This document shows positions 60,324 to 62,540 of a DNA stretch of 64,000 nt, piece by piece. The translations under genes were made by a program, and so were the position numbers. The stretch is from Acidomonas methanolica (lineage in GTDB: Bacteria; Pseudomonadota; Alphaproteobacteria; Acetobacterales; Acetobacteraceae), in contig NZ_SLZN01000004.1 of assembly GCF_004346035.1 (NCBI RefSeq), positions 62,001-126,000 of the forward strand, given 5' to 3'. The notes beneath the pieces were generated by a model that was not told the origin of the DNA, did not search any database, and was given only the letters and a program-made list of their open reading frames with translations. The first letter of the stretch is position 1. Each line of letters opens with the position of its first letter.

Positions 60324-60383
60324 TGTCTTGAGGTGAAGTGAGTGATACCGGATGATCGAGTCCCGACTCACAGGAGGAAGCAG

Positions 60384-60674
60384 ATGGACGATACGACCAA
60401 GGCCAAGGCCGAGGGGCTGTTGGATGAAGCCAAGGGGCGCGTGAAGGACGCGGTGGGCGGCCTGACCGGGGATGCCGGGTTGCAGGCCAGCGGCAAGGTG
60501 GACCAGCTTTCCGGAATGGCGCAGCAGGAATTCGCCGATCTCTACGAGGATGCGGAGAGCCGGCTGGAAATGGCGACGGCCTTCGTGCAGGACCGTCCGC
60601 TTCTCGCTTTGGGGATCGTGGCGGTGATCGGCACGCTGATCGGCGCGCTCCTCTTCGGCCGCCGCGGGAAATAA
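60384..60674 (+). CDS. CsbD-like stress protein with C-terminal membrane helix
   Basis: A 96-residue protein. The first half is CsbD-like (KAKAEGLLDEAKGRVKDAVGGLTGDAGLQASGKVDQLSG), a family of small general-stress proteins. The second half (EDAESRLEMATAFVQDRPLL and then ALGIVAVIGTLIGALLFGRRGK) resembles DUF883/ElaB-type proteins, with a Gly-rich membrane helix. It would sit at the inner membrane with the CsbD part in the cytoplasm. AGGAGG precedes ATG 60384 and an EcfG promoter precedes that, so it is probably induced by the general stress response. Confidence 0.88.
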   Translation: MDDTTKAKAEGLLDEAKGRVKDAVGGLTGDAGLQASGKVDQLSGMAQQEFADLYEDAESRLEMATAFVQDRPLLALGIVAVIGTLIGALLFGRRGK

Positions 60675-60684
60675 GGCGAGGGAA

Positions 60685-60714
60685 AGCCGGATTTCCGCAT
60701 CCCGGCCGTCTTTT
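60685..60714 (+). terminator. Probable terminator after the csbD-like gene
   Basis: GCCGG and CCGGC pair around an 11-nt loop, followed by CGTCTTTTT. The stem is short, but the T run and position 10 bp after the stop fit a weak intrinsic terminator. Confidence 0.45.
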
Positions 60715-60745
60715 TGCGCGTCGCGGACGCCGAAGCATTTGCTTT

Positions 60746-60775
60746 CCGAATCGCTTTGATTCAAAAGCGATTCGG
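60746..60775. promoter_or_regulatory. Inverted repeat with three GANTC sites ahead of rnhB-ccrM
   Basis: Perfect 12-bp arms CCGAATCGCTTT and AAAGCGATTCGG surround the loop GATTCA. GANTC, the CcrM target, occurs three times in 26 bp: 60748-60752, 60758-60762 and 60769-60773. The element lies 45 bp before rnhB, in the leader or promoter of the rnhB-ccrM operon. No TTAA-N7-TTAA CtrA site is visible. It is a candidate methylation-sensitive switch. Confidence 0.6.
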
Positions 60776-60819
60776 GGGGCGTTCCCCGCAGGATGTTCCG
60801 GGGGAGTGCGACAAGGGGA

Positions 60820-61458
60820 ATGCCGGATTTTTCGCTGGAAGCCGCGCTGGGCGCTCCGGATGTCCTCGTCGCCGGGCTGGACGAGGTGGGGCGCGGCCCG
60901 CTCGCGGGGCCGGTGGTCGCGGCGGCGGTGGTCTTCCGCCTGGTTCCGCCCGCAGGGCTGGCCGTCCTGCTCGACGATTCCAAGAAATTGAGCGCCGCCC
61001 GGCGGGAGCGCGCCTTTGTGGCGTTATGCGCCGCGCCGGGGGTGGAACTGGCGCTCGGCGCGGCTTCCGTGCCGGAGATCGAGCGGCTGAATATCGGTCA
61101 GGCGACGCTGCTGGCGATGCGCCGGGCGCTGGCGCGGCTCCGGCTGGTTCCCGCCATGGCGCTGGTCGACGGCAATCGCGCGCCGGATCTCCCTTGTCCG
61201 GTGCGGACTGTCGTGGGAGGAGATGGGCTGAGCCTGTCCATCGCCGCCGCCTCGATCATCGCCAAGGTGGTGCGGGACCGTGCGATGACGCGGCTTTCCC
61301 GCCGCCATGACGCTTATGGCTGGGAGCGGAACGCGGGCTATGGCACGGCGGCGCATCTTTCCGCCTTGCGCAGCATTGGGCTGACGCGGCACCATCGGCG
61401 CGGCTTCGCCCCGGTGCGCGACCAGCTTGCGCTCTTTGCCATGGAGGCCGCGTCGTGA
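60820..61458 (+). CDS. rnhB: Ribonuclease HII
   Basis: Cuts RNA in RNA-DNA hybrids, notably single ribonucleotides in DNA. The 212-residue protein has catalytic Asp21/Glu22 in [33 protein letters not shown] (52-63), Asp117 in ALVDGNRAP, and [22 protein letters not shown] with the fourth acid. ATG 60820 is the best start for family length; 60793 adds nine residues. Its stop overlaps the GTG start of ccrM, so the two are co-translated, an arrangement also seen in other alphaproteobacteria. Confidence 0.95.
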
Positions 61459-62540
61459 GCGAGGACATGCCGAGGGACGCGATTCTTCGCGGCGACTGCG
61501 TCGAGGTGATGCGGAGCCTGCCGGACGGGCAGGTGGACTGCATCTTCGCCGACCCGCCCTATAATCTCCAGCTTCGCGGGGAACTGCGCCGTCCGGACGA
61601 GAGCGTCGTGGACGGGGTGGACGATGCGTGGGACAAGTTCGACGACTACGCCACCTACGATCATTTCACCCGCGCCTGGCTGAGCGAGGCGCGTCGCCTC
61701 CTGCACAAGGACGGCACGATCTGGGTGATCGGCTCCTACCACAACGTGTTCCGCCTCGGCGCGATCCTTCAGGATCTCGGCTTCTGGATCCTGAACGACA
61801 TCATCTGGCGCAAGGCCAATCCGATGCCGAATTTCCGGGGGCGGCGCTTCACCAACGCGCATGAGACGCTGATCTGGGCGGCCCGGGAGCCCCAGAGCAA
61901 ATATCGCTTCAATTATCAGGCGATGAAGACGCTCAACGACGACGTGCAGATGCGCAGCGACTGGTATCTGCCCCTGTGCACGGGAAACGAGCGCCTGCGC
62001 AACCGGCACGGGCTGAAGCTGCATCCGACGCAGAAGCCGGAAAGCCTGCTCTATCGCGTGCTGCTGGCCTCGACCCGGACGGGCGACACGGTGCTCGACC
62101 CCTTCTGCGGCAGCGGCACCACCCCGGCCATGGCCAAGCGCATGGGGCGCCGCTACCTCGCCATCGAGCGCCACCCCGATTACATCGCCGCCGCACAGGA
62201 GCGGATCGACCGCGAGACGCCGCTCGCGGAGGAGCAACTGGCCGTCACGCCCGCGCGGCGCGAAACGCCTCGGATTCCGTTCGGCAGCTTTGTCGAGCGG
62301 GGGGTGTTGCCCGCGGGAACCGAGCTTTTCGACCGCGCGCGCCGCGTCTGCGCCACGGTGGCGCCCGACGGGTCGGTCGTGTCCGGCAGCCAGCGCGGGT
62401 CCATCCACAAGCTGGGTGCGCTGCTGACCAATGCGCCGTCCTGCAACGGGTGGACCTTCTGGCATTTCGAACGGGAGGGCGCGCTGGTGCCGATCGACGT
62501 GCTGCGGACGGAGCCGGACCCGTTGCGCGAAGCGGGGTGA
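61455..62540 (+). CDS. ccrM: Cell-cycle DNA adenine methyltransferase CcrM (GANTC)
   Basis: Beta-class N6-adenine methyltransferase of the Caulobacter CcrM type, which methylates GANTC and couples chromosome replication to transcription. The 361-residue protein has DPPY (33-36), the S-adenosylmethionine motif DPFCGSGTT (215-223), and the CcrM-specific C-terminal domain after residue 260 ([45 protein letters not shown]). GTG 61455 overlaps the rnhB stop. No restriction enzyme accompanies it, as expected for an orphan regulator. Its own operon leader contains three GANTC sites. Confidence 0.96.

Follow-up and report, generated by a model that had tools for sequence, protein, structure and literature searches.

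A conserved cluster of predicted CcrM sites before rnhB-ccrM in acetic acid bacteria, a candidate element for ccrM self-control

In Acidomonas methanolica, three GANTC sites are gathered in an inverted repeat just upstream of the rnhB-ccrM operon. This raises the question of whether the arrangement is an accident of one genome or an element by which CcrM could control its own synthesis, and whether such an element would act as DNA, as RNA, or as both. We studied this leader in a window of 64,000 nucleotides (the whole stretch of DNA that was analysed, to which all positions refer) and in related bacteria. The features of the locus are as follows.

60686..60715, + strand: terminator-like stem and T tract (TCTTTTT) of the upstream DUF883/CsbD-like gene, read from the sequence
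60714..60741, + strand: candidate lax promoter, with an inferred -35 TTGCGC (60714-60719), N16, and -10 CATTTG (60736-60741)
60735..60745, + strand: putative 5' arm of an outer stem (GCATTTGCTTT), 10/11 pairs with 60813-60823 by inspection
60746..60775, + strand: perfect inverted repeat with 12-bp arms and a 6-nt loop; each arm has a GANTC, and a third overlaps the loop
60748..60752, no strand: GANTC site 1, CGAATCG (GAATC), a - strand match to the GcrA consensus YGAKTCK
60757..60774, + strand: ccrM-specific signature TGATTCANAANCGANTCG (sites 2 and 3), single copy per genome
60758..60762, no strand: GANTC site 2, TGATTCA (GATTC), in the loop
60769..60773, no strand: GANTC site 3, CGATTCG (GATTC), matching YGAKTCK on the + strand
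60778..60787, + strand: alternative anti-start segment GGCGTTCCCC, complementary to 60815-60824
60813..60824, + strand: rnhB ribosome-binding site and start region (AAGGGGAATGCC)
60820..61458, + strand: rnhB (RNase HII), conserved start; NF000595, 220 bits, above cut-off
61455..62540, + strand: ccrM; NF050803, 617 bits, E 6e-186, under that model's curated cut-off of 830

The initial annotation had described three GANTC sites in 26 bp, two in the arms and one in the loop of a perfect 12-bp repeat, and the coordinates bear this out: the sites start at 60748, 60758, and 60769, and the arms (60746-60757 and 60764-60775) are 100% complementary with 6 nt between them. Its distance of 45 bp before rnhB is consistent with the 44 nt that separate the palindrome from the ATG at 60820. 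The suggestion that a hairpin could form in RNA also agrees with folding predictions for the RNA strand (z = -4.05 over 66 nt and z = -6.33 over 36 nt), in which 14 pairs are predicted, two of them G-U at the base. The expectation of about one GANTC per 300 bp, on the other hand, was too high. GANTC is depleted in the window, with 172 sites (1 per 372 bp) found vs 323 expected from dinucleotide shuffles, and such rarity is general in Alphaproteobacteria (PMC3973325).

When 172 GANTC are placed randomly, three sites within 26 bp arise in 64 kb with P ~0.2, and perfect inverted repeats of ≥12 bp (loop of 3-12) number 3 in the window vs 0.25 in first-order Markov sequence. The rarity of cluster and palindrome inside the window alone is moderate. 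Across the 3.68-Mb genome, three sites spaced exactly 5 and 6 nt apart are found a single time, at the rnhB-ccrM leader of the window. It is because of conservation that we place the cluster beyond chance, its position in the window alone not being decisive.

The rnhB start is most likely ATG 60820 (ATGCCGGAT..., encoding MPDFSLE...), which matches nearly all relatives, since nearly all leaders end in ATGCC(G/A)GA(T/C). ATG 60793 was rejected as a start, as it is not conserved among relatives. The rnhB stop overlaps the ccrM start via GTGA (61455-61458), an overlap that suggests translational coupling of the two genes. Upstream, the promoter region of rnhB is bounded by the terminator-like stem at 60686-60715, a stem that the terminator scan did not call. 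The gene before it (60342-60674) is a DUF883/CsbD-like stress gene, and coding ends resembling that of the window precede rnhB in other genera (L008, L009), so that the neighbourhood seems conserved. As a side observation, genome G000 gave about 16 further weak CcrM matches, mainly to the C-terminal part of the methylase domain, which correspond to other adenine methyltransferases.

The rnhB-ccrM loci were collected from the family, with three genera sampled in depth. Genus labels follow named loci whose leaders are identical (Brytella acorum L033, Gluconobacter wancherniae L034, Asaia bogorensis L036, and Acetobacter cibinongensis L037). Four further groups carry labels that we presume: Komagataeibacter-like (g84), Bombella-like (g33), Gluconacetobacter-like (g66), and Novacetimonas-like (g97). 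Across 25 genera, leaders average 2.7 GANTC in the 120 bp upstream of rnhB, vs 0.28 predicted from the remainder of the loci; in 77 leaders of more distant relatives, the mean is 0.38. Within the wider clade of the window, site 2 is near-invariant, and the position of site 1 is kept in Brytella and Gluconobacter (as GAGTC) and lost in genomes G025 and G022. We found TGATTCANAANCGANTCG exactly once in 17/22 genomes of this clade, and comparison with ccrM coordinates placed every copy ~0.66-0.72 kb upstream of ccrM; a reversed control pattern gave 0 matches in the 22 genomes searched. Within the searched genomes, this clade signature is shown to be ccrM-only. Similarly, three Acetobacter genomes each carry CGANTCG-N11-CGANTCG at rnhB-ccrM and nowhere else, and the CGANTCG form accounts for 152/302 leader sites vs 44/423 in the rest of the loci and 26/172 in the window. 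These comparisons show that a cluster of predicted CcrM sites is conserved before rnhB-ccrM in acetic acid bacteria. Its density varies: six Acetobacter loci (L156, L157, L230, L231, L277, L278) have five GANTC in ~45 bp before the operon, the densest cluster seen, and a single GANTC is left before rnhB in the Commensalibacter-like loci L194, L196, and L197, from small, AT-rich genomes.

The palindrome itself gave a different picture. The Brytella hairpin has 13 pairs and one mismatch, as does that of G025 despite a site 1 that is no longer GANTC; the G022 hairpin is weak, and that of Gluconobacter, with 8 pairs only, is not above shuffles. In a site-locked test, where the GANTC were fixed and the remaining leader sequence was shuffled, the arms were longer than chance only in the window and in most Acetobacter and most Komagataeibacter-like leaders, and no long palindrome was detected in Gluconobacter, Asaia, and Bombella-like leaders. 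It is thus unnecessary for a function common to all. The Acetobacter and Komagataeibacter-like palindromes differ in sequence while carrying GANTC in both arms at an equivalent position. In Acetobacter they reach 16 bp (TTGGTGCGACTCGGTA/TACCGAGTCGCACCAA), and the layout of two arms with a site in the loop recurs in one group (AAACGACTCGAT-GATTCAT-ATCGAGTCGTTT). The flanks of the arm sites form 375 Watson-Crick pairs with their own partners vs 311 with swapped partners in 41 Acetobacter leaders (0/1000 swaps), where G-C, A-T, and T-A alternate at identical positions, and 165 vs 157 in 18 Komagataeibacter-like leaders (0/1000). Counted covariation agrees (2/500 and 1/500, respectively), both tests counting species rather than events, with relatedness uncorrected. 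Such covariation can alternatively stem from template-switch mutation. The methylation switch put forward in the initial annotation is partly supported by these comparisons: its sites are conserved and ccrM-specific, and its palindrome gave a mixed outcome, as it is near-perfect in Brytella and imperfect though foldable in G025 but weak in G022 and absent in Gluconobacter. It is the site cluster that is conserved, whereas a perfect palindrome is specific to lineages yet recurrent. In Gluconobacter leaders (L115-L121, L251-L275), a second hairpin of variable sequence (GGTCACC..GGTGATC, GTCAGTTTATTGAC) was noted between the GANTC triple and rnhB.

Leader folding predicted that, in several genera, the 5' leader pairs with the rnhB Shine-Dalgarno sequence and start codon, enclosing the GANTC hairpin. 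This outer stem was above shuffled sequence in g33, g84, g97, and g66. In Acetobacter, it reached -17.9 kcal/mol with its own partners vs -15.0 kcal/mol with swapped ones (0/2000, relatedness uncorrected); in Gluconobacter the same comparison gave 41/2000, and no advantage of own over swapped partners was found in the other three groups tested. No both-side changes were seen in the Bombella-like outer stem. A universal outer stem was rejected, since in Asaia, the window, Brytella, and others the pairing is no better than in shuffled sequence. In the window, the segment 60735-60745 nevertheless lies where Acetobacter and others have a supported outer stem, and the accessibility of the start is mildly reduced (0.31 vs 0.41). 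In the two main inner stems, as set by their Watson-Crick arms, G-U exceeds A-C (12 vs 6 columns), a modest excess that leans toward RNA of the + strand. No Rfam family was matched at gathering score in six leaders, the window giving matches at chance level. The leader sequences support a probable RNA role of the hairpin in Acetobacter and the Komagataeibacter-like genus, and because the window pairing is not above chance, such a role is no more than plausible there. We also noted a motif, CTTGC-N16-ATGGTTTnC, at constant spacing ~80-115 bp before rnhB (L177, L164, L184, L189, and others), shared by Acetobacter, the Komagataeibacter-like and Gluconacetobacter-like groups, and some deeper genera. 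The ATGG of this motif pairs with the start region of rnhB, and its CTTGC may be a promoter element. A small upstream reading frame beginning at ATGGTTTTC in Acetobacter and Komagataeibacter-like leaders was rejected, as its ATG is not conserved, several Acetobacter reading AAGTGATTC; start-region pairing better explains the ATGGTTTTC motif.

Which factors could read the sites at the promoter? A strict sigma-70 scan found no promoter in the window leader. A G. oxydans study (PMC5756330) gives a promoter motif of ttGnnn / nAtnnn with a spacer of 16-23. The candidate lax promoter at 60714-60741 would start transcription at ~60745-60752, and the palindrome would therefore lie at the extreme 5' end of the transcript. 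GcrA prefers methylated YGAKTCK (PMC7987155), a consensus that sites 1 and 3 match and site 2 does not. The genome encodes GcrA (PF07750, above cut-off), and the CGANTCG bias of the leaders would be fitting for the preference of this protein. On contig C5 of G000 (197814-198599; L199, L200), a single open frame of 299 aa contains two matches to the GcrA family (profile positions 1-97 and 49-152), a pattern suggestive of an insert or partial duplication within the protein. The window has no CtrA half-site TTAA in the 160 bp upstream of rnhB; the genome encodes a CtrA-like protein with 49% identity to a Caulobacter CtrA query sequence. In part of the Rhodospirillales group retaining CcrM and GcrA, the CckA-ChpT-CtrA network is reduced (PMC2877005).

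Altogether, we consider it fairly probable, from comparison of sequences, that the cluster is a dedicated methylation-sensing cis-regulatory element of rnhB-ccrM, whose hairpin is probably also active as RNA in some lineages. Passage of the replication fork would leave the sites hemimethylated and so alter how active the promoter is, with GcrA and sigma-70 as the most likely mediators; CcrM would thereby be produced after replication, re-methylate the sites, and reset the promoter. Overlapping GTGA would let rnhB and ccrM be produced jointly, and the palindrome would double as a hairpin, probably in the leader RNA, beside the pairing that masks the rnhB ribosome-binding site. We infer methylation autoregulation of ccrM by the cluster on these grounds, and a cluster found once per genome, before rnhB-ccrM, does look like a dedicated switch for CcrM self-control. 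A bolder proposal is that the GANTC repeats are at once a DNA methylation sensor and an mRNA hairpin controlling rnhB-ccrM translation; in its strongest form, the stem would offer double-stranded GANUC to CcrM, which would bind it and repress its own translation. We hold this to be rather unlikely. It is unlikely too that the element is purely RNA, the palindrome being the inner hairpin of an rnhB leader that masks the ribosome-binding site and GANTC a by-product of stem sequence. Outer and inner stems covary in Acetobacter and the Komagataeibacter-like group, pairing of leader and start exceeds shuffles in the four groups named above, the G025 hairpin persists though its site 1 has lost GANTC, and G-U outnumbers A-C in stems defined by Watson-Crick arms. 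However, that excess is modest (12 vs 6 columns), Gluconobacter, Asaia, and Bombella-like leaders keep GANTC clusters without a long hairpin, and the CGANTCG flank bias together with the once-per-genome signature points to DNA sites.

The arms could instead form a DNA operator, with dimeric GcrA or another methylation-sensitive protein on two sites about two helical turns apart. The starts of the outer sites are indeed 18-21 bp apart in most clades, the arms fit the GcrA consensus, and the window leader has no TTAA half-site for CtrA, but spacings of 16, 18, 19, 20, and 21 bp keep no strict helical register and site orientation differs among genera, which makes such an operator decidedly unlikely in our judgment. 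We find it highly doubtful that the palindrome, as distinct from the cluster, is a mutational by-product in which template switching during replication perfects inverted GANTC quasi-palindromes. This would suit palindrome sequences that differ between lineages and seem to have independent origins, and pairs of CGANTCG sites are self-complementary save at the centre; against it, complementarity of the Acetobacter arms is maintained by a wide variety of pair types, some of the departures are G-U and not A-C, and the hairpin is kept in the nearest relatives. A strong hairpin between two genes might also serve the upstream gene as an intrinsic terminator, or be one copy of a dispersed palindromic repeat, a reading to which we give next to no credence. 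As a terminator it was rejected, as GGGGGG follows in place of a T tract, the + strand scan did not call it, and the terminator-like stem with TCTTTTT is a different one, at 60686-60715; as a dispersed (REP-like) repeat it was rejected, being single-copy in the genome.

The preferred reading, a methylation-sensing element, bears on CcrM timing outside Caulobacter. A conserved, ccrM-only GANTC cluster offers a feedback element open to direct test in bacteria that are of industrial use and amenable to genetics, and co-varying palindromes prompt one to ask if a single sequence can serve as both a DNA methylation switch and an RNA leader. In the literature searched, no paper linked GANTC to Acetobacteraceae, or ccrM to both rnhB and methylation. 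The closest known system is the ccrM promoter of Caulobacter crescentus, which likewise has GANTC upstream of ccrM; it has two such sites, and its hemimethylated state favours expression (PMC10073500, PMC2217572), direct methylation control being called 'most probably' the case (PMC3973325). Unlike in Caulobacter, ccrM here stands second in an operon with rnhB, and the sites number at least three, tightly spaced and often palindromic. Caulobacter ccrM is also activated by CtrA, whereas the window leader is without a TTAA half-site. As in methylated GcrA-sigma70 promoters, CGANTCG fits YGAKTCK and GcrA is encoded in the genome. Those promoters mostly have one site in Caulobacter, more than one upstream site being present at 11/96 starts (PMC4287350), whereas here the cluster lies at or just after the presumed start and GcrA binding is putative. 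Like mRNA leaders that hide ribosome-binding sites, the outer stem would cover the Shine-Dalgarno sequence and start codon in several genera; unlike such leaders in Rfam, it gave no match at gathering score and is weak in the window. The best reading is that the rnhB-ccrM leader is a previously undescribed variant of the known GANTC-bearing ccrM promoter.
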